Assembly: GCA_016212965.1 (NCBI GenBank)
Contig: JACRDA010000071.1
Coordinates: 1 to 64,000 of the forward strand
DNA from: Myxococcales bacterium
GTDB taxonomy: Bacteria > Myxococcota_A > Polyangia > Polyangiales > Polyangiaceae
Reading direction: 5' to 3'
DNA: 64,000 nt
Under the pieces are notes generated by a model, which was given only the letters and a program-made list of their open reading frames with translations, was not told the origin of the DNA and ran no database searches. Shown here piece by piece: positions 24,610 to 49,311 of this stretch. Made by a program: the position numbers and the translations under genes. Positions within the stretch are counted from its first letter, which is position 1. Every line of letters starts with the position of its first letter.

Positions 24610-25462
24610 GGACCGTGCCGTTTCGCTCCGTCGGGTCAGAAGTCGTCAGCGCAAGTGCCCGAGTCAGGAGCTCGTCGCTCGTCCAACGTGCGAGGTGCGC
24701 GAAGGCGCTCCGAGCGGCCTCCTCGACGGTCAGGCTGGCGCCGAGTCGTTCGCAGAGCTCCCCGAAGGTGGCCCCGCGCGCGGCGAGTGCCAGCAACTCT
24801 GCCTCCTCGACAGAGACCGCGCGGTGCCACACGGTCACGCCCTTGCGCCACACGAGGAGCGCCGCCTCCCGAGGAACAGCGTCTTGCGGTGGCGCGGCCC
24901 CTTCTTCGATCGCCTGCCACAACGGAGCGACGTCGAAGCAAACCTGGACCACGCGGTGGGCGGGGATCGGCTGCAACCGTAGGCTGACGAAGTCTTCCGG
25001 TGGGACTTGCCCGAGGTCGTCGAGGCAGAGCGGCACCGCGTCCACCGCGTCGAAGAGGTCGACCCGGGCCCACTCGAGCAGGGCGAGATCCACGAGCCAC
25101 GCACGTTGCCCGCAAAGGGGGTGCCCCGTGAGGAAGGCCGGCAAGCCGTCACCCGCAAAACGAATCGACGGATTCGCCGGCGGATGAGCGGCGAGGTAGT
25201 CGGTTACGAGGTTGTGGAACGCAGCGTCGCCGAGGACCGCGAGCGTCTTTGGGTAGTCGCCGCGCAGCACGTCGAGCAGGCGGAAGAAGTACATGTTGGC
25301 GTACACCTCGAGCCGCCCCGCGGCATCGAGGCGCGCGTCGCTCACGACCAGATCGTCGGCCGTGAGCCCGAGCCCCGACAGGGCACCTGCGACGCCCTGC
25401 GGCGCGGTGACTAGGCGGTAGAAGAGCCCCTCAACCGCGCCAAGCGAACGTTCAGCCAGCAT
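24605..25462 (-). CDS. bufC: DUF2063 partner protein of the MNIO enzyme (BufC/HvfC-type)
   Basis: 285 residues. The helical N-terminal DUF2063 domain shows the typical RLEVYANMYFFRLLDVLRGDYPKTLAVLGDAAF-like block (about 50-85) and LAAHPPANPS. The C-terminal part (about 170-285) includes an HTH-like segment. In bufferin and related systems this protein helps the DUF692 oxygenase bind its precursor. It overlaps the bufB end by 11 bp, the same overlap seen in the second locus. It is cytosolic and acts on the bufA2 product before export. Confidence 0.83.
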   Translation of the reverse strand: MLAERSLGAVEGLFYRLVTAPQGVAGALSGLGLTADDLVVSDARLDAAGRLEVYANMYFFRLLDVLRGDYPKTLAVLGDAAFHNLVTDYLAAHPPANPSIRFAGDGLPAFLTGHPLCGQRAWLVDLALLEWARVDLFDAVDAVPLCLDDLGQVPPEDFVSLRLQPIPAHRVVQVCFDVAPLWQAIEEGAAPPQDAVPREAALLVWRKGVTVWHRAVSVEEAELLALAARGATFGELCERLGASLTVEEAARSAFAHLARWTSDELLTRALALTTSDPTERNGTVL

Positions 25463-26333
25463 GACTCGCCTCCCACGACTGACTCGGCGCGAACGCTACC
25501 GCTGTGCCTGACGCCGTGACCTCGGCCTCGATGGCGGCGGCGCGCTGGGTCTCCTCGATGACGCGCCCGAGCGGCGGGATCTGCGCATCCCACTCGACCA
25601 GGGTGGACACCGGGCCGAAGCGTGCGACCGCATCGCGGTAGAGCTCCCAGACGTCGTCGCACACCGGGTGGTCGTGGGTGTCGAGAAGGAGCGGGCCGTC
25701 GGCGCTGTGGCCGGCGAGGTGGATCTGACCGACGCGATCCGCGGGCACGCCCTGGAGAAACGTGCGCGCGTCGAAGCCGTGGTTCTTTGCGCTCACGTAG
25801 ACGTTGTTCACGTCGAGCAAAAGGCCGCAGTCGGCGCGGTGACACAGCGCAGTGAGGAACTCCCACTCGGTCACGGTCGAGTGCGCGTACCGTAGATAGC
25901 TCGACACGTTCTCCACGAGGATCCTGCGCCCGAGCCGCTCCTGCACGCGTACGATCCGGGCGCTCACGTGCGCGAGCGCCTCCTCGGTGTACGGCAGAGG
26001 CCAGAGGTCGTGCCCGGTGTGGCCGCCGAAGCTCGAGAAGCAGAGGTGGTCGGAGATCCACGCCGGCTCGGTCTCGGCGGCGAGCTCCGCCACGTCGGAG
26101 AGGTAGGCCTCGTTGAGCGGGTCGACGGAGCCGAGCGACAGCGACACTCCATGGAGCACCACCGGGTAGCGCTCGCGCACGGCGCGCAGCACACGTCGCG
26201 GGTTGCCACCTGGCATCGTGAAGTTCTCGGTGATGACCTCGAACCAGTCGACGGCCGGGCGGTCCGCCACGACCTCGCGGTAGTGGACCGTGCGCAGCCC
26301 GATGCCGTGCCCGAGGTTCGGGAAACCATGCAT
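25452..26333 (-). CDS. bufB: MNIO (DUF692) multinuclear non-haem iron oxygenase, BufB-type
   Basis: 293 residues, a TIM-barrel of the DUF692 family (as MbnB, TglH, BufB). Expected iron ligand blocks are visible: LHGVSLSLG, ISDHLCFS, ENVSSYL, LLDVNNVYVSAKNHGFD, IHLAGHS, DTHDHPV and LVEWD. It would oxidise precursor cysteines using an iron cluster and O2. A strong SD (GAGGAGG) precedes the ATG, and an ECF-type promoter lies about 50 bp upstream. It is cytosolic and works with the overlapping DUF2063 gene; the nearest precursor is the BufA2 peptide downstream, with a possible extra Cys-rich ORF upstream. Confidence 0.87.
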   Translation of the reverse strand: MHGFPNLGHGIGLRTVHYREVVADRPAVDWFEVITENFTMPGGNPRRVLRAVRERYPVVLHGVSLSLGSVDPLNEAYLSDVAELAAETEPAWISDHLCFSSFGGHTGHDLWPLPYTEEALAHVSARIVRVQERLGRRILVENVSSYLRYAHSTVTEWEFLTALCHRADCGLLLDVNNVYVSAKNHGFDARTFLQGVPADRVGQIHLAGHSADGPLLLDTHDHPVCDDVWELYRDAVARFGPVSTLVEWDAQIPPLGRVIEETQRAAAIEAEVTASGTAVAFAPSQSWEASHAG

Positions 26334-40344: not shown

Positions 40345-41314
<970 letters not shown>

Positions 41315-41316
<2 letters not shown>

Positions 41317-41441: not shown

Positions 41442-41867
41442 ATGGCCAAAGACGACTGCTGCTCGGTTCCGGTTCCAGCGCCGACCAAGGATGCGAAGCC
41501 TCGAGCCTCCCGCGGCGCACTTGCCGCCACAGCGGCTTCCATTTTTGCCGCGTTTCTCGCATCGGCTTGCTGTGTCGGGCCGCTCGTTTTCGCTTTGCTC
41601 GGGCTCGGTGGGGCGGGGCTCATGGTCAAGCTCGAGCCCTACCGGCCCCTCTTCATCGTCGTCACCTTCGCGCTCCTGGGCGCGGGCTTCTACCTGACCT
41701 ACCGGCGGCCGCGCCCTGCGCCCGCTACAGGCGGGGTGGCCGGAGCGGCGTGCGCCTGTCCCGCGCCCCGCACCAACCGCGCTGGGCGCGTCATGCTCTG
41801 GGTCGCGACCGTGGTCGTCGCGTCGCTCCTCGTCTTCCCGTACCTCGCGCCGGCTCTCTTCGGCTGA
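41442..41867 (+). CDS. merT: MerT-type mercuric ion transporter
   Basis: 141 residues, inner membrane. The vicinal Cys pair in the first helix (LASACCVGPLVFALLGLGGAG), a second helix, the cytoplasmic loop with CAC (GAACACPAP) and a last helix are the MerT pattern. An extra N-terminal DDCCSV adds a further pair. It would carry Hg(II) in from a periplasmic MerP to MerA. First gene after the sigma54 promoter; merA follows after 11 bp. The order merT-merA-merP-merP is unusual. Confidence 0.85.
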   Translation: MAKDDCCSVPVPAPTKDAKPRASRGALAATAASIFAAFLASACCVGPLVFALLGLGGAGLMVKLEPYRPLFIVVTFALLGAGFYLTYRRPRPAPATGGVAGAACACPAPRTNRAGRVMLWVATVVVASLLVFPYLAPALFG

Positions 41868-41878
41868 GGGCTCGAGCC

Positions 41879-43324
41879 ATGACGACGCCTCGAACATTGG
41901 ATCTTTCGAACGACGTGCAGCGCGGCGGCGCGTTCGACCTCATCGTCGTCGGCGCCGGCAGTGCCGCTTTCGGTGCGGCGCTGCGTGCCTCCGAGCTCGG
42001 CGCGCGGGTGGCCATGGTGGAGCGGGGCACTCTCGGCGGCACGTGCGTCAACATCGGCTGTGTTCCCTCGAAGACGCTGATCCGCGCCGCCGAGGCCGTG
42101 CACCGAGCGAACCATCCGCGCTTCGCCGGCGTCACGGCGCAGGCGCGCGTCGAGGATTTCCGAGCGCTGATGGCCGAGAAACGGAGTCTCGTCGCGGAGC
42201 TGCGTGCGGCGAAGTACGCGCGCGTGCTCGCCGAAACGCCCGGCGTCTCATTCTTCGAAGGCCACGCGCGGTTCGCCGGACCAGGGCGCATTCTGTTGAG
42301 CGGGACCGAGCTTCGCGCCGACCGGTTCGTCCTCGCCACCGGCATGCGCCCCAACGTGGTCGACGTTCCGGGACTCGAAGAGACCGGCTACTTGACGAGC
42401 ACGGACGCGCTCGCGCTGGAGGTCCTCCCGAGATCGATGGTCGTCCTCGGCGGCCGCTTCGTGGCCCTCGAGCTCGCGCAGGCATTCGCGCGGCTCGGGA
42501 CGCGGATCACCGTCGTCCAGCGCAGCCGTCACGTACTGCCGAGCGAAGACGACGACGTGGCGCAGGAGCTCGAGCGCCTGCTCGCCGCAGAGGGCTTGAA
42601 CATCGTCACGGGAGCGCGCTTGCAGAGCGCGTCGCGCGATGGCACGAACCGCGTGGTCGAGCTCGAGCGTGATGGCGAACGGATCCGCATCGCGGCAGAG
42701 CGGATCCTCGTCGCCACCGGCCGCCGCGCGAACACGCACGACCTCGGGCTCGACCTGATCGACGTCGAGCTCCGGAGCGACGGAACCGTCGTCGTCGACG
42801 ACTTTCTCGAAACCACCGTCCCGGGCATCTTTGCTGCCGGCGACGTCATTGGCGACCCGGCGTTCGTCTACACCGCGGCCTACGAAGGTCGACTCGCGGC
42901 CGAAAACGCCCTCGGTACCGCGAAGCGGACGCGAGACTACTCGGCACTTCCGGCGGTCGTGTTCACGGATCCGCAGCTTGCGACGGTGGGGCTCAACGAG
43001 AAGGAAGCGCGCGCGCGTGGCATCGAGGTAGATGTCGCCAAGCTGCCCTTTGTCCACGTGGCGCGTGCACTGGCGGCGCGCGATACCCGCGGCTTCGTCA
43101 AGTTGCTTCGTGCCCGCGGGACCGATCGCCTCGTAGGCGCGACAATCCTCGCTCCCGAGGCGGGGGATCTCATCATGGTGCCCGCGCTCGCGATCCGTCA
43201 CGCAATTCCGGTGAGCGCGCTCGCTGAGGCCTTCCACCCCTACTTGACCGCCGCGGAAGCCATCAAGCTCGCCGCACAGACCTTCACCAAGGACGTGGCG
43301 AAGCTCTCATGCTGCGCCAGCTAG
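41879..43324 (+). CDS. merA: Mercuric reductase without the N-terminal heavy-metal domain
   Basis: About 481 residues from ATG 41879. FAD fold VVGAGSAAFGAA, redox disulfide GGTCVNIGCVPSKTLIRAAE, NAD fold VVLGGRFVALE, second FAD block IFAAGDVIGD, and the C-terminal FHPYLTAAEAIKLAAQTFTKD ending SCCAS. That terminal Cys pair, absent from the related gene at 14728, is the Hg(II)-binding pair of MerA. The usual NmerA (MerP-like) domain is not fused; two separate HMA proteins follow. It reduces Hg(II) to Hg(0) with NADPH in the cytosol. Confidence 0.88.
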   Translation: MTTPRTLDLSNDVQRGGAFDLIVVGAGSAAFGAALRASELGARVAMVERGTLGGTCVNIGCVPSKTLIRAAEAVHRANHPRFAGVTAQARVEDFRALMAEKRSLVAELRAAKYARVLAETPGVSFFEGHARFAGPGRILLSGTELRADRFVLATGMRPNVVDVPGLEETGYLTSTDALALEVLPRSMVVLGGRFVALELAQAFARLGTRITVVQRSRHVLPSEDDDVAQELERLLAAEGLNIVTGARLQSASRDGTNRVVELERDGERIRIAAERILVATGRRANTHDLGLDLIDVELRSDGTVVVDDFLETTVPGIFAAGDVIGDPAFVYTAAYEGRLAAENALGTAKRTRDYSALPAVVFTDPQLATVGLNEKEARARGIEVDVAKLPFVHVARALAARDTRGFVKLLRARGTDRLVGATILAPEAGDLIMVPALAIRHAIPVSALAEAFHPYLTAAEAIKLAAQTFTKDVAKLSCCAS

Positions 43325-43347: not shown

Positions 43348-43668
43348 ATGAGACACGCGCTTGCTCGGCGAATCACGCTGCTCGGTACCCTGCTCGGCGC
43401 GCCCGCGTTCTCGGTGCTCGCACCTGCGCCGGCCCGCGCGCAGGCACCCGACGAAGCGAATGTGGTCCTCGCGATCGAGGGCATGCACTGCGCCAGCTGC
43501 GCCGTGACGGTGCGCGTCGTGCTGCGCCGACTCGAGGGTGTCCGCGAGGCCACGGTGGACGTCGAGGCGAAGACAGCGCGCGTGAGCTACGACTCCACGC
43601 GGGTGAATCCGGAGCGGATGATTCGCGCCATCGAGGAGGCGGGTTACCACGCTCGCGTGCAACCATGA
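43348..43668 (+). CDS. merP: Periplasmic HMA-domain mercury-binding protein (MerP-like)
   Basis: 106 residues from ATG 43348 (SD AAGGAG); a frame starting inside merA is less likely. A signal peptide (LLGTLLGAPAFSVLAPAPARA) ends near residue 32, followed by a 70-residue heavy-metal-associated domain with GMHCASC. It would bind Hg(II) in the periplasm and hand it to MerT. The stop overlaps the next gene (ATGA). Copper binding cannot be excluded, but context favours mercury. Confidence 0.83.
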   Translation: MRHALARRITLLGTLLGAPAFSVLAPAPARAQAPDEANVVLAIEGMHCASCAVTVRVVLRRLEGVREATVDVEAKTARVSYDSTRVNPERMIRAIEEAGYHARVQP

Positions 43669-44069
43669 CGGCCCTCGAGCGAGCGGTTCGCGCCAGCGTC
43701 GTCCGACGCAGAGGTTGGATCACGCGCGGTCGGCCGCTGCTCGCGCTCACCTGGGTGCTCGCGGTTCACGCTTGCCAGCGCGAGGTGCGAACGGCGTCCT
43801 CGGCGAGCAGCGCGCCAAGCGCCGCGGCATCGGATCCGCCCGCACCGGAGGAGCGCGAGGTCGAGATCATCGTCGAGGGGATGCACTGCGCGACCTGTCC
43901 CGTCACCGTGCGCACTGCCGCCGAGAACTTGGCGGGAGTCATCGACGTCCGTGTGAGCATGGCCGAGGGCCGCGCCTGGGTCCGCTACCGACCGTCCGAG
44001 ACCGCGCCCGCGTTTGTCGCCGCCGCCATCACGGACTCTGGGTACCCGGCGCACGACGCGCGCCGGTAG
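43665..44069 (+). CDS. Second MerP-like HMA protein, probably a lipoprotein
   Basis: 134 residues. A hydrophobic segment ends in VHAC (about residue 37), a possible lipobox. After a Ser/Ala/Pro linker the HMA domain has GMHCATC, with Thr before the last Cys in place of the Ser of the first copy. It may be a membrane-tethered periplasmic Hg(II) carrier working beside MerP. Last gene of the mercury operon; an ECF-type promoter for the next operon begins 81 bp later. Confidence 0.75.
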   Translation: MTALERAVRASVVRRRGWITRGRPLLALTWVLAVHACQREVRTASSASSAPSAAASDPPAPEEREVEIIVEGMHCATCPVTVRTAAENLAGVIDVRVSMAEGRAWVRYRPSETAPAFVAAAITDSGYPAHDARR

Positions 44070-44149: not shown

Positions 44150-44175
44150 CGTAACGAAACCTCCGGTGCGGCGAC
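44150..44175 (+). promoter_or_regulatory. Candidate ECF promoter for the second MNIO operon
   Basis: CGTAACG-N16-GAC, with GGCGAC at the -10 side and T at position 18. Predicted start near 44182, leader about 38 bases to ATG 44221 with GAAGGGA as SD. Confidence 0.7.
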
Positions 44176-44220
44176 CAAGCGTGCGAGTCGGTGAAGTGCC
44201 GACGAAGGGAAGAAACGATC

Positions 44221-44730
44221 ATGACCACCATCAGCAAATACGCCCTCGCTCTCGCCGTCCTCGGGTCCGGTGCCGCCCTGTCGGCGTGCACGACCGGCGC
44301 CAACGTTCACGCGACGGAGGTGCCTGCGGCCACCACGCCGAGCCCGGAGATGGCCGCGGGCGCGAAGGCGAGCTGCGGCGCGAACCACGCGCCCGGGGCG
44401 ATGTCGACCCCGACGGGCACCGGGGCGGCGGGCTCCTGCGGCGCGAAGGCCGCTGCCGCGGGCTCCTGCGGCGCAAAGCCCGGAAGCGAGGGTTCGATGG
44501 GCGCCAAGGTGCCGGCCGGTGCCGCAGCCTCCTGCGGGGCGAACGCCGGCGCGGTGGCCGCAGAGGCCTCGACGGCTGCCACTGCGCCGACGACCACCAC
44601 CACGAGCTCCGCCCAGACCGCGCCGCCAGCGGCGCCGGCCAAGGGCGCCGTCGCAGCGCCGAAGGCGGGTGCGACGGTCGGCAAGCAGGCGCCCGCCCAG
44701 GGCGGTTGCGGCGCCGGATCCTGTGGCTGA
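44221..44730 (+). CDS. GSCGAK-repeat lipoprotein, likely MNIO RiPP precursor of an unusual type
   Basis: 169 residues from ATG 44221. A lipoprotein signal ends in ALSAC (about 22). The mature chain is low-complexity (Ala/Thr/Pro/Gly) with Cys only in short repeats: ASCGAN, GSCGAK, GSCGAK, ASCGAN and a terminal GGCGAGSCG. One repeat reads GSMGAK, with Met for Cys. This resembles the EGKCG-repeat HvfA precursors more than BufA1 or BufA2. It is first in an operon with DUF692 and DUF2063 genes and so is the probable substrate. If so, several separate Cys-Gly sites would be modified along one exported, membrane-anchored chain. Confidence 0.75.
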   Translation: MTTISKYALALAVLGSGAALSACTTGANVHATEVPAATTPSPEMAAGAKASCGANHAPGAMSTPTGTGAAGSCGAKAAAAGSCGAKPGSEGSMGAKVPAGAAASCGANAGAVAAEASTAATAPTTTTTSSAQTAPPAAPAKGAVAAPKAGATVGKQAPAQGGCGAGSCG

Positions 44731-44763
44731 CGCGTCGCAGGCGCGAGCACGAGGAGCATGAAC

Positions 44764-45648
44764 ATGAGCGTCGAGCAACTCGAAGGCGTGGGTCTCGGTC
44801 TGCGCTGGGAGTTTCTGCACGAGGTGCTCGGCGCCGCTCCCGGCGCGCTCGACGCCATCCGGTTCTTCGAGGTGGCGCCCGAGAACTACATGCGCCGGGG
44901 GGGCTACTTCCCCCACGCTCTGGCGACCGTCGCGGAGCGCCACCCGGTGACGACGCACGGCCTCACGCTCTCACTCGGCGGCGCCGACCCGCTCGACGCG
45001 GACTACCTCGCGGAGCTTCGCCGGTTCCTCGGGCGTTTCGGCGCCGGCTGGCACTCCGACCACCTGTGCTTCTCGGGCGCCGGTGGGGGCGTCTTGCACG
45101 ACCTCTTGCCGGTCGCCTTCACGACGAGCGCGGCGAAGCGCGTCGCCGCGCGCGTGCGCGAGGCGAGCGAACGACTCGGCCTTCCTGTCGCCGTCGAGAA
45201 CATCAGCTACTACACGACGCTCGGCGGCGACCCGCGCGATGAGCCCGCGTTCATCGCCGAGGTCCTCGAGCGCGCCGACTGCGGCCTGTTGCTCGACCTC
45301 AACAACCTCGACGTCAACGCCGAGAACCACGGCTTCGACGCGCGCGCCTGGCTCTCCGGGATCCCGCTCGAGCGCGTGGTCGAGATCCACGTCGCGGGCC
45401 CCGAGCGCTGGAGCGATGCCCGTGCCGAGCTCCTCGTCGACACCCACGGCGCCCCGGTGCGCCCGCCCGTCTACGAGCTCCTCTCGCGCGTCATCTCACG
45501 CACGGGCCCGGTGCCCGTGCTGCTCGAGCGCGACAACAACGTCCCGCCGCTCGCGGAGCTCCTCGACGAGGTCGCGGCGATCGATCGGGTGTATCGCTCG
45601 GCCATCGCGAAGTGGCGCGCCGTGCACGAGGGACGCCATGCAGCCTGA
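44764..45648 (+). CDS. MNIO (DUF692) oxygenase of the second RiPP locus
   Basis: About 294 residues; ATG 44764 is preferred to 44758, which stands only one base after GAGGAG. DUF692 barrel blocks with probable iron ligands: THGLTLSLGG, HSDHLCFSG, ENISYYTTLGG, LLDLNNLDVNAENHGFD, IHVAGP, DTHGAPV and LLERDNNVPP. Overall it is clearly diverged from the bufB copy at 25452, in line with a different precursor. It would oxidise Cys residues in the GSCGAK repeats. It overlaps the DUF2063 gene by 11 bp, as in the first locus. Confidence 0.86.
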   Translation: MSVEQLEGVGLGLRWEFLHEVLGAAPGALDAIRFFEVAPENYMRRGGYFPHALATVAERHPVTTHGLTLSLGGADPLDADYLAELRRFLGRFGAGWHSDHLCFSGAGGGVLHDLLPVAFTTSAAKRVAARVREASERLGLPVAVENISYYTTLGGDPRDEPAFIAEVLERADCGLLLDLNNLDVNAENHGFDARAWLSGIPLERVVEIHVAGPERWSDARAELLVDTHGAPVRPPVYELLSRVISRTGPVPVLLERDNNVPPLAELLDEVAAIDRVYRSAIAKWRAVHEGRHAA

Positions 45649-46498
45649 CCTCCAACCAGAGCGCGCACCCGAGAGCATCGGGCCGTTCGAGGCCGCGCTG
45701 GTCGAGCTCATCTGCACGGCTGACGCCGCGTCGCTCGAGCGCGATCTACCCGCCATCTTCGCGGCCCACGGGGTCGTCGACGCAGCGCGCGCGCTCGAGG
45801 CCGATCCGCGCGCGCCTGCGCGCCTCTTGGCCTACCGCACCCTCGTTCACGCGCGCTTCCGCGGGGTCGCCGAGGTGACGATGCCACGTACCGCCGCGCG
45901 CCTCGGACCGGAGCGGCTCGCGGCCGAGGTCGCCCACTTCGTCGAGGAGCACGCGTCGCCCTCGCCCTATGTGCGCGACGTCGCGACGGAGCTCTGCGCG
46001 TGGTGGACTCGTCGCTGGCCCGGTGACGCGAGCGTTCCGGGCTACCTGCTCGATCTCGCGCGGCACGAGCTGCTCGCGGTCGACGTCGGAGCGGCCGAAG
46101 ACGACGCGCCGCCCGACGCGGGCCCCGGGGCGGTGCTGTCGGCCTGGAGCGCCCTCCGCCTCCAACGCGGCGCCCGCCTCGTGCGCTACGCGTTCGCGGT
46201 CCACCGTCTCCCGGAGGACGACGTGTCCGCGGTCCCCGAGCGCATCGACACGGCGCTCCTCGCCTATCGCGATCGCGAGCACTGGGTGCGGTACCTCGAG
46301 CTCTCCACGCTCGGCGCCGCCGTCGTCGAGCGGCTCCGCGCCGGAGCCTCGCTCGAGGTCGCCGTGCGCGAGGGTTGCGGAGAGGCCGGAGCGTCGCTCG
46401 ACGGCGCCACCCTCGCTGGCATCGTGGCGCTGCTCGAGGATCTCGAGAGGCGCGGAATCGTGCTCGGGCAGGACGCAGGCAGCACCACCGGGCAGTGA
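45638..46498 (+). CDS. DUF2063-like partner of the second MNIO enzyme (HvfC-type)
   Basis: About 286 residues from ATG 45638, overlapping the DUF692 end by 11 bp. It is helical throughout, with the DUF2063-type block RLLAYRTLVHARFRGVAEVTMPRTAARLG (shown in part: LLAYRTLVHARF, VTMPRTAARLG) near residues 60-95 and a C-terminal winged-helix-like part. It is more diverged than the first copy. It likely binds the precursor leader and presents it to the oxygenase. The AhpD-like gene begins 12 bp later. Confidence 0.72.
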   Translation: MQPDLQPERAPESIGPFEAALVELICTADAASLERDLPAIFAAHGVVDAARALEADPRAPARLLAYRTLVHARFRGVAEVTMPRTAARLGPERLAAEVAHFVEEHASPSPYVRDVATELCAWWTRRWPGDASVPGYLLDLARHELLAVDVGAAEDDAPPDAGPGAVLSAWSALRLQRGARLVRYAFAVHRLPEDDVSAVPERIDTALLAYRDREHWVRYLELSTLGAAVVERLRAGASLEVAVREGCGEAGASLDGATLAGIVALLEDLERRGIVLGQDAGSTTGQ

Positions 46499-46510
46499 AG
46501 GTGAACGGAC

Positions 46511-47104
46511 ATGGGCCCGACAGACGACAGCCACGACGCCGCCGCGCCCCGCAGCGGCCAGCGCATCGCGGGCCGCGCAACGGCCCCGCTGTGGCTGCGA
46601 GCGTTCTACCGCCTCCAGAGGCACCGCTACGGCGAGGTGCTCGAGCCGACGCGCGTCTGGGCGCGCGTCCCCGCGGCGCTCCTCGGCTTCGTCCACCTCG
46701 TCGCGGCGGTGGACCGTTCGAGCTCGCGGCTGCCGCCTGCGCTGCGTTCGCTCGTGATGGTGAAGGTCTCGCAAGTGAACACCTGCGCGTTCTGCATCGA
46801 CCTCAACGCGGCGAGCGTGCAAAAGCGCGGCGTCTCGAACGACAAGCTCGCAGAGCTCCCGGAGCATGGCGCGTCGCCGCTCTTCACGGAGGTGGAGCGC
46901 GCCGCCCTCGACTACGCAGTCGCCGTAACGAAAGACGCCGCAGCGATCGACGACGAGCTCTTCGCGCGCCTTCGCCGCTTCTTCGACGACGACGCCATCG
47001 TGGAGCTCACGGCGCTCGTCGCGCTCCAGAATGCCTCGAGCAAATTCAACGCGGCGCTCCGCATTCCGGCGCAGGGCTTGTGCTTCGTGCCGCCGCGGCC
47101 GTGA
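46511..47104 (+). CDS. AhpD-like carboxymuconolactone decarboxylase-family protein (second copy)
   Basis: 197 residues. NTCAFCIDLNAASVQKRG (C-x2-C about residues 94-97) is the AhpD-type redox site, but with Asp-Leu-Asn where the first copy has Val-His-Ser, so the usual His is missing. The all-helical fold is otherwise kept (LFTEVERAALDYAVAVT). It is co-operonic with the MNIO genes, and its stop overlaps the MFS start (GTGA). Its recurrence at both MNIO loci suggests a shared redox function. Confidence 0.72.
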   Translation: MGPTDDSHDAAAPRSGQRIAGRATAPLWLRAFYRLQRHRYGEVLEPTRVWARVPAALLGFVHLVAAVDRSSSRLPPALRSLVMVKVSQVNTCAFCIDLNAASVQKRGVSNDKLAELPEHGASPLFTEVERAALDYAVAVTKDAAAIDDELFARLRRFFDDDAIVELTALVALQNASSKFNAALRIPAQGLCFVPPRP

Positions 47105-48408
47105 GCGAGGCGCCCATCCGCGTGGCAGCTCATGCCAGCTCCGGGGTCGCGCGCCTGCTTGGCGCCAACGCGCTCATCCGAGTCGCGGCGTCCGCGTCGG
47201 GGCAGCTCTTCGCGTACTGGCTCGCCGAACGCCTCGGGCACGATGCGGGCGTAGGCGCGATCCTCGGTGGCCTGGTCGGCGCCAGCTTCTTCGTCACGGA
47301 GCTCCTCGGCGCGCCCTTCGCCGGCCGCGTTGCGGACACCGTCGGACAGCGCCGTGTGCTGCGACGCGGACCCGTCTTTGGTGCGGCGTCGGGGCTCGTC
47401 GCCCTGGGTGGCACCCTCGGCTCCACCTGCCCTGTCGGGCTCCTTGCGGCGCTGCTCGTGGCGGCGCGCACGCTCGAGGGCGCGAGCGCAGCGTGCGCCG
47501 TGCCGACGACCCTCACGCTGCTGTCGCGTGCGACCGAGGGGAATGCCGCGCGCCGCACGCGCGTGATGGGCCTCTTCGAAGTGACGTCGCTCGTGGCCAT
47601 GATCGCCGGCTTCGCGCTGGCGGGTCTCTCGTGGCGCGCGGCCGGGACGGTCGCCTTCCTGGCGCTACCCGCGCTGTACGCCGCGGCGTGGCTTGCGGTC
47701 GGCTCGAGCGCTCGCGAGCCCAGGCCCGTCGCACCGAGCGCCCAGTCTGGCGTGGCCGACCCACACCTCCCGACGGTGCTCGCGACGCTGCGAGCGCTCG
47801 CACGCGACCGCGGCAGCCTGCCTTTCGCCGTCGCGTGGCTCAGCGTGAACGCCGTCGTCGGCGCCTGGCTCCAGCACGCGCCCTACGTGCTCACCCTGCC
47901 GGAGCGAACGCCAGGGCAGCTGCTCTCCGGCGGCCTCGAGAGCCACGAGGCCGGAGCGGCCTTCGTCGTCTGGGGTCTGCTCTTCCTCGCGGGCATCGCT
48001 GCCTGGTCGGGCCTCGCGCCCCGGGCACCACGGCGGCGGGTGCTCGCTCTGGGTCTCGTGGCGATGCTGGGAGTCGCCGGTACGCTCGCACTCGTGAACC
48101 ACGGCGCGCCGAGGGCGTTGCTCGCGCTCGGCGCGCTCCTCGTCGTTGTCGAGAGCGGCTTCACGCCCGCGGCTCTCGCGCACCTCGCCGACCTCACGGC
48201 GCGGCACGATGCGGCGCGCGGCACCGCCCTCGGGCTCTACTCGCTGCTGCTCGGCGGCGGGCAGCTCCTCGGGCATGGTCTCGGCGCACCTTTCGTGGCG
48301 CTCCTGCGCATGGATGGCCTGCTCATCTTGACCGCGCTGCTGTCGCTCGTGGCGCTGCTTGCCGTCGCGCATATGCCGGCGCGCGCGCACCAGGTCCCTT
48401 CGACGTAA
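47101..48408 (+). CDS. MFS transporter
   Basis: About 435 residues from GTG 47101, overlapping the AhpD-like stop. Twelve predicted helices; the loop between helices 2 and 3 reads GRVADTVGQRRV, the family's G-x3-D-x-x-G-x-R-x-x motif. A central cytoplasmic loop lies near residue 205. As last gene of the second MNIO operon it may export a small product or signal, or import a metal complex; a large peptide substrate would be unusual for MFS. Substrate unknown. Confidence 0.75.
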   Translation: MSEAPIRVAAHASSGVARLLGANALIRVAASASGQLFAYWLAERLGHDAGVGAILGGLVGASFFVTELLGAPFAGRVADTVGQRRVLRRGPVFGAASGLVALGGTLGSTCPVGLLAALLVAARTLEGASAACAVPTTLTLLSRATEGNAARRTRVMGLFEVTSLVAMIAGFALAGLSWRAAGTVAFLALPALYAAAWLAVGSSAREPRPVAPSAQSGVADPHLPTVLATLRALARDRGSLPFAVAWLSVNAVVGAWLQHAPYVLTLPERTPGQLLSGGLESHEAGAAFVVWGLLFLAGIAAWSGLAPRAPRRRVLALGLVAMLGVAGTLALVNHGAPRALLALGALLVVVESGFTPAALAHLADLTARHDAARGTALGLYSLLLGGGQLLGHGLGAPFVALLRMDGLLILTALLSLVALLAVAHMPARAHQVPST

Positions 48409-48498: not shown

Positions 48499-49311
48499 AT
48501 GAATCGCAAGGTCAAGTTCGCGCTGCTCGGTGTCGGGGTCGTGCTGCTCGGAGCCGGCACGGCGTTCTTCGTCTCCACCCAGATCGACGACACCTCCGCC
48601 ATCGGTGTGCGTGCGGCACCTCCTCCTCCTCCCCCGGCTGAGCCGGCTGTGAAGGGCGCCGTGCGCATGGCCGTCGCGGAGAGCGGCAACGTGCGGTTTG
48701 TCATCGACGCCCCGGAAGAGAAGATCAAGGGCCGCTGGGGCAAGCTGCGCGGCCAGCTCGATGTCGAACCGACGGACCTTCGGAAGACGACTGGCCAGAT
48801 CGATGTCGACCTCGCCGACACCACCACCGAGACCTTCGACGACGCCGCGAAGAACCTGAAGCAGACCGAGCACGCGCGCAACTGGTTCGAGCTCGGCACC
48901 GACGTGCCCGAGGCGCAGCGCGAGCAGAATCGCTGGGCGCGCTTCACCGTCGAGAAGGTGGACGAGGTCGGCGCGGTGAACCTCGCCAGCGTGGCGCCGA
49001 CCGGCGACGCGCGCACGGTGCACGTGACGGCGAGCGGGCACCTCTGGCTCCACGGCGTGACCTCACCGAAGACCGTGAAGCTCGTGCTCACGCTCGGCGG
49101 CCCGGCGGAGCGCCCGACATCGCTCCGCATCGCCACCGAGGCACCGATGCCGGTGTCGATGAAGGAGCACGACGTCAAGCCCCGCGACGTCGTCGGGAGG
49201 TTCCTCAAGGGCGCGTCCGAAAAGGTGGGCGCCAAGATCGTTGACGACGTACAGATCTTCTTCGAGATCGAGGCGCGAGCGGTCGCAGGTGCCGAGGCGC
49301 TCGCCCGGTAG
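48499..49311 (+). CDS. YceI-like periplasmic lipocalin-fold protein
   Basis: About 270 residues from ATG 48499. A single N-terminal hydrophobic segment (FALLGVGVVLLGAGTAFFV) is followed by a poly-Pro stretch and a YceI domain: NVRFVIDAPEEKIKGRWG, GQIDVDLADTTTETFDDAAKN, HVTASGHLWLHGVTSPK. YceI proteins are beta-barrels that bind polyisoprenoids or amphiphiles and respond to stress. A membrane-anchored periplasmic location is likely. It has its own ECF-type promoter; the redoxin gene follows 84 bp later and may be read through. Confidence 0.78.
   Translation: MNRKVKFALLGVGVVLLGAGTAFFVSTQIDDTSAIGVRAAPPPPPPAEPAVKGAVRMAVAESGNVRFVIDAPEEKIKGRWGKLRGQLDVEPTDLRKTTGQIDVDLADTTTETFDDAAKNLKQTEHARNWFELGTDVPEAQREQNRWARFTVEKVDEVGAVNLASVAPTGDARTVHVTASGHLWLHGVTSPKTVKLVLTLGGPAERPTSLRIATEAPMPVSMKEHDVKPRDVVGRFLKGASEKVGAKIVDDVQIFFEIEARAVAGAEALAR

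Follow-up and report, generated by a model that had tools for sequence, protein, structure and literature searches.

The window analysed here, a 64,000-nucleotide stretch of a Myxococcales bacterium genome (contig JACRDA010000071.1, positions 1 to 64,000 of the forward strand), contains an operon that probably directs the synthesis of a lipid-anchored ribosomally synthesized and post-translationally modified peptide (RiPP) with several modified cysteines. A lipoprotein precursor with Ser-Cys-Gly (SCG) motifs is followed directly by genes for a multinuclear non-heme iron-dependent oxidative enzyme (MNIO, DUF692) and a DUF2063 partner protein (Table 1). The operon would represent a Myxococcota branch of the captophorins, with the oxazolin/HvfA systems as its nearest known group. 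By analogy with these, its most likely function is the conversion of Cys to 5-thiooxazole, giving a membrane-anchored buffer for soft metals. An earlier sequence-only reading, confined to positions 44150-48408, had proposed an MNIO/DUF2063 RiPP operon whose lipoprotein precursor has several Cys sites, and both the operon and its relatives support this proposal. That stretch includes neither the upstream mercury-resistance (mer) operon nor the recurrent downstream YceI-like gene described below.

The precursor lipoprotein and the captophorin features of the locus

Up to the lipid cysteine, the N-terminus of the precursor (translation of 44221-44730) reads MTTISKYALALAVLGSGAALSA. As had been described from the sequence alone, the 169-residue lipoprotein has its only mature cysteines in (A/G)SCGA(K/N) repeats and a terminal GGCGAGSCG, and its gene stands directly before those for DUF692 and DUF2063. 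Apart from lipobox residue Cys23, there are six cysteines (positions 52, 73, 83, 105, 163 and 168) and each is followed by Gly, an arrangement with a probability of about 2e-5 by composition alone (the mature part is 16.4% Gly). The motifs start at residues 51 (ASCGAN), 72 and 82 (GSCGAK), 104 (ASCGAN) and 162 (GGCGAGSCG). The variant GSMGAK, previously noted for its Met in place of Cys, is present at residue 92 (Met93) and keeps the 10-residue register of the adjoining repeats. A recent duplication of the repeats at the DNA level was rejected because their codons differ at the wobble positions. No Pfam or NCBIfam family matched the precursor, including DUF2282 (BufA1) and BufA2, and the sole match of precursor profile A1 in the window's genome was the window copy itself (E 1.9e-14).

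The features expected of a captophorin locus were found together: a Cys-rich signal-peptide precursor directly upstream of the MNIO, with 27 bp between the two genes, a PF05114 MNIO with iron-ligand motifs, and an adjacent partner with DUF2063 and a RiPP recognition element (RRE) fold (PME1), whose gene overlaps that of the MNIO by 11 bp. The lipobox with an invariant Cys that marks DAG-RiPPs is present as LSA/C, and the lipid Cys is invariant in an alignment of 31 precursors.

Table 1. Features of the SCG-type operon and of the genes around it
Feature	Coordinates	Strand	Evidence
Sigma-54 activator gene, before merT	40345-41316	divergent from merT	
merT, mercuric ion transporter	41442..41867	+	PF02411 69.2 bits, cut-off 32.9; start picked from open reading frame
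merA, mercury(II) reductase	41879..43324	+	TIGR02053 536.7 bits, cut-off 454; ends ...LSCCAS
MerP-like periplasmic heavy-metal-associated (HMA) protein	43348..43668	+	PF00403 67 bits; MerP model 58.8, below cut-off 92.6
Second MerP-like HMA protein	43665..44069	+	PF00403 38 bits; MerP model 46.7, below cut-off
Putative RiPP precursor, 169-aa lipoprotein, SCG type	44221..44730	+	sequence; ATG at 44221, stop ends 44730
Predicted lipoprotein signal peptide, lipobox LSA/C (Cys23)	44221..44289	+	sequence; lipobox-like motif also in relatives
Four internal SCGA(K/N) repeats and Met variant GSMGAK	44371..44550	+	sequence
C-terminal GGCGAGSCG	44701..44727	+	CGxGxC near C-terminus in 50/66 relatives
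MNIO (DUF692) modification enzyme	44758..45648	+	PF05114 306 bits (cut-off 25); ligand motifs as in 3BWW
DUF2063 and NGO1945_C partner (PME-type 1)	45638..46498	+	PF09836 31.1 (cut-off 27.2), PF22106 45.2 (cut-off 27)
AhpD/carboxymuconolactone decarboxylase (CMD) protein, locus-specific	46511..47104	+	PF02627 54 bits
Major facilitator superfamily (MFS) transporter, locus-specific	47101..48408	+	PF07690 86 bits
YceI-like protein, N-terminal membrane anchor	48499..49311	+	PF04264 41 bits, cut-off 23.7

A precursor family linked to MNIO genes

A scan of genome contigs with the window MNIO yielded 51 loci, almost every one in Myxococcota or in uncultured deltaproteobacteria, and 47 of 59 related genomes contained at least one MNIO. 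The architecture of the window precursor recurs at about 80 Myxococcota loci, with a lipobox, zero to five (A/D/E)GSCGxK repeats and, in many cases, an ATEVPA-like motif or a CGxG(S/T)CG at the C-terminus. When the upstream regions were read at each locus, 80 of the 93 SCG-clade loci had a Cys-containing lipoprotein immediately before the MNIO, a count that includes a few doubtful automatic precursor calls; several of the 13 misses lie at contig ends. The sequence-only reading had also asked whether such precursors occur mostly without DUF692 neighbours in other genomes. This is not so: 22 of the 24 matches at E<=1e-10 obtained in the 59 genomes by reverse search with a 31-precursor profile adjoin an MNIO. 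Across the phylum (237 genomes), precursor-profile matches at E<=1e-8 were present in 15 genomes, 14 of which belong to the same class.

Motif statistics were compiled for 66 curated, distinct precursors and compared with shuffled sequences. Gly follows 183 of the 247 mature cysteines (shuffles: mean 43, maximum 60), a TEVP-like motif lies no more than 28 residues from the lipid Cys in 38 precursors (shuffles: mean 1.8, maximum 9), and CGxGxC occurs within the final 30 residues in 50. The number of internal repeats varies among relatives, and Sorangium and Polyangium retain the terminal pair only. The repeats read AEGSCG or DGSCG in Nannocystineae precursors and AEGKCG at locus L061, and the relatives grade continuously from GSCG to AEGKCG. 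The HvfA domain cut-off of 19.5 is exceeded by the L040 precursor (22.2) and by the control L126 (32.1). SCG precursors represent an unnamed family, without a Pfam or NCBIfam model, that is paired with MNIO/DUF2063 genes across Polyangia and bridges EGKCG oxazolins and SCG lipoproteins.

Plesiocystis pacifica (L056) combines an SCG-clade MNIO with precursor repeats of the form EGSCKG, in which Cys is followed by Lys, a residue class that FonB rejects. On the reverse strand at L142 (G032:C536:4000-9000), a lipoprotein of the SCG type that ends in KEGSCGAGTCGSKKLL directly precedes a radical SAM/SPASM protein, for which SbtM ranks second among the NCBIfam models (113.5 bits, cut-off 350); genome G032 gave no MNIO match at E<=1e-40. 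Radical SAM proteins are not proposed as a general alternative maturase, one homologue having been found in 290 genomes of the class, without an SCG precursor beside it.

Phylogeny and active site of the MNIO

In a maximum-likelihood tree of MNIOs (120 rows), the SCG-type enzymes of Myxococcota group in a single clade (81 rows, support 99/92). Just outside it fall the HvfB/EGKCG references, namely 3BWW, L126, which has a precursor accepted by the HvfA model, and L135, which sits on a long and less certain branch. Together, the SCG clade and these enzymes are split from the bufferin/CKG-type MNIOs with support 100/97. The window enzyme conserves the metal-ligand motifs, the catalytic Asp (FonB D249) and R15. 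Since FonB tolerates Ala, Arg or Thr before Cys and demands a small residue after it (PMC13097082), SCG and GCG are, by analogy, plausible substrates. The pocket of the SCG clade has W/F/A/S at position 16 and N/Q/H/S at position 250 (FonB numbering), and the family provides a natural test of how these two residues set MNIO specificity.

From these features the modification and its chemistry, the lipidation, the bound metal and the physiological role can be predicted as follows. After translation, the signal peptide of the precursor, perhaps together with the ATEVPA motif, would be bound by the DUF2063/RRE partner, as judged from HvfC, FonC and BufC. The MNIO would oxidise the Cys of each SCG motif by four electrons, lowering the mass by 4 Da at each site and by as much as 24 Da if all six react, the products most likely being 5-thiooxazoles. 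The peptide would be exported and triacylated at Cys23 via the lipobox, as shown for NedA, and the membrane-held thiolates would bind a soft metal, which may be copper by analogy or, given the mer operon, mercury in this organism. The YceI-like protein may also take part in the periplasm.

Comparison with known systems

The oxazolin systems (HvfA-HvfB-HvfC) and the Buf_EGKCG group (fontiphorin, gonophorin) share with the window operon the MNIO and DUF2063 pair, a precursor that comes first in the operon and has a Sec-type signal, tandem x-Cys-Gly repeats, a sister MNIO clade and the C-terminal CGxGxCG spacing. The sequence-only reading had overstated the distance from HvfA: in the window's CGAGSCG the cysteines recur every five residues, as they do in EGKCGEGKCG of HvfA, and the precursor continuum, the L040 score and the position of the MNIO clade as sister to the HvfB type all place the two nearer to each other. 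Differences from oxazolin/HvfA are nevertheless evident. The window precursor has SCG and not KCG, its repeats are set far apart in a chain rich in Ala, Pro and Thr, it carries a lipobox, and the HvfA/oxazolin models NF050137 (KCGExKCG_twice) and NF050188 gave no match to it. At the level of the operon, the MNIO is R16W and F250N, no DoxX was seen and a YceI-like gene is a neighbour.

NedA, a DAG-RiPP of Neisseria dentiae, is likewise a lipoprotein precursor with repeated Cys motifs that adjoins an MNIO and its partner. It carries EGKCG repeats, and its triacylation and -12 Da modification have been demonstrated experimentally in E. coli, whereas those of the window product are predicted (PMC12636315). 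Bufferins 1 and 2 (BufA1/DUF2282 and BufA2) resemble the window operon in layout, and about 16% of Buf2 have lipoprotein signals (PMC12452194). Unlike the bufferins, the window precursor matches neither DUF2282 nor BufA2 and its MNIO belongs to another clade; Polyangia have a separate CKG/Buf2-like operon type. The CxxxxC and adjamnio families also consist of Sec-signal Cys precursors before MNIO-PME1 pairs, with different Cys motifs (PMC12452194). Hundreds of unclassified small Sec-signal open reading frames before MNIOs have been listed in the same study, and the SCG type may already be among them without a name. To date, 5-thiooxazole formation has been found for the characterised PME1-dependent MNIOs, which are grouped under the name captophorins (PMC13097082). 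Because captophorins, the lipidated NedA and the lists of unclassified reading frames have already been reported, the SCG operons appear to be a variant of known PME1-dependent MNIO RiPPs and not a new kind.

Alternative explanations

Several observations weigh against the assignment of the window operon to the captophorins. The specificity residues Arg16 and Phe250, by which the HvfB/Lys-Cys MNIO group is recognised, are replaced by Trp and Asn in the window enzyme, which also scores below the HvfB equivalog NF003818 (283.5 bits, cut-off 360) and below the bufferin maturase BufB NF050167 (279.2 bits, cut-off 310). Like the MNIO, the DUF2063 protein stays below every NCBIfam equivalog cut-off, its best model being HvfC with 97 bits against 142. 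No DoxX gene, a frequent though not invariable member of bufferin and oxazolin operons, was found in the scanned interval that runs from the mer genes to 50.2 kb, and no recurrent DoxX-like neighbour was noticed in the relatives, where gene calling was crude. The orphan SCG-type lipoproteins at L140, L141, L143 and L144 have no adjacent MNIO; an MNIO operon is present elsewhere in each genome, and these lipoproteins are possibly modified in trans. The orphans would also fit an ordinary, unmodified Cys lipoprotein that lies beside the MNIO by chance, but this explanation is extremely improbable in view of the MNIO linkage across about 80 loci, the strong Cys-Gly conservation and a gene order that matches all bufferin-type operons. 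A simple HvfA/oxazolin operon acquired from Pseudomonadota would explain the spacing of CGxG(S/T)CG, which equals that of EGKCGEGKCG, as well as the L040 precursor above the HvfA domain cut-off and the AEGKCG repeats of L061. Such an origin is highly unlikely, as the window precursor has no HvfA match, the 81 Myxococcota MNIOs fall together in a clade that excludes HvfB (represented by three HvfB/EGKCG-type references), and both the lineage-specific repeats and the YceI neighbour speak against it.

The remaining alternatives concern chemistry and metal. With its specificity pocket changed, the MNIO could convert the SCG Cys to something other than 5-thiooxazole. The clade-wide replacement of R16 and F250 agrees with this, and other MNIO groups yield oxazolone-thioamides and further products. 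However, bufferin groups likewise vary at positions 16 and 250 and all characterised PME1-dependent MNIOs produce 5-thiooxazole (PMC13097082), which leaves a different product unlikely. A similarly low probability is given to a product that serves as a mercury-dedicated mer accessory, the modified lipoprotein capturing Hg(II) at the envelope ahead of its handling by MerT and MerA. The mer neighbourhood suggests mercury: the same strand carries merT, merA and two merP-like genes immediately ahead of the precursor gene, with 151 bp in between, a Rhodanobacter plasmid has the order buf1-MNIO-DUF2063-merT-merP, and MerC-bufferin fusions have been reported (PMC12452194). Yet mer genes were found at no other SCG locus with 6-kb flanks, and they are missing from the closest relative, L035, with 73% MNIO identity. 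Quite unlikely is the more specific proposal of a mercury-dedicated captophorin, an envelope lipoprotein whose several MNIO-made heterocyclic thiols would buffer Hg(II) for MerT/MerA, with the YceI-like protein replacing DoxX; if it were true, the SCG branch would be a class specialised in its own right, with a distinct enzyme pocket. Should the mer linkage be functional, copper-linked RiPPs would be extended to mercury.

Neighbouring genes

The gap between the mer genes and the precursor gene showed a fold no better than shuffles in a terminator check, and no sigma-70 site was found in it. The HMA proteins and MerA were rejected as conserved partners, none being present at other loci and MerA being absent from a genome of the same genus. 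A second MNIO-mer neighbourhood was observed at L131 (Rhodanobacter plasmid NZ_CP088926.1), where a DUF2282 bufferin (buf1), an MNIO and a DUF2063 gene are followed directly by merT and merP.

Neighbours of the MNIO loci were surveyed by tblastn with named queries. The AhpD-like protein and the MFS carrier, proposed in the sequence-only reading as new partners, did not hold up as such: neither was found at the approximately 80 other MNIO loci, and a search of 58 relatives for the AhpD protein gave nothing at E<=1e-25. Because no homologue occurs at any other locus, the two genes, which overlap by 4 bp and occupy a 2-kb stretch found in the window's genome alone, look like a local insertion. 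The YceI-like gene lies after this stretch in the window and directly after the DUF2063 gene in the closest relative (L006/L035); elsewhere it is mostly found just upstream of the precursor. It is adjacent at 32 of 75 SCG-clade loci and at 1 of 25 CKG-clade loci (Fisher p 1.7e-4, a value that ignores relatedness), which adds YceI-like proteins as a candidate partner of the SCG operon type. No link between YceI and DUF692 was found in the literature searched.

Further MNIO loci were encountered in the course of the survey. In most of the Polyangia genomes examined that have two MNIO operons, the second is of the CKG/Buf2-like type. The first MNIO operon of the window (25452-26333, reverse strand) encodes an EWDA-type enzyme, immediately before which no lipoprotein precursor with Cys was found. 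A paralogous MNIO-DUF2063 pair at L004 (G000:C97, 1159-2370) is 51% identical to the window MNIO and has the pocket ERDA; its sole upstream lipoprotein contains no mature Cys, and an ERDA enzyme that lacks a precursor is likewise present in genome G001 (L026) of the same genus. At L009, L014, L016 and L021 the best DUF2063 match near the MNIO is on the opposite strand, against the usual order. At L002 (G000:C96) a 7-Cys Buf2-like lipoprotein (CLGINTC...CSGKGW...EECAKKGG) precedes the MNIO.

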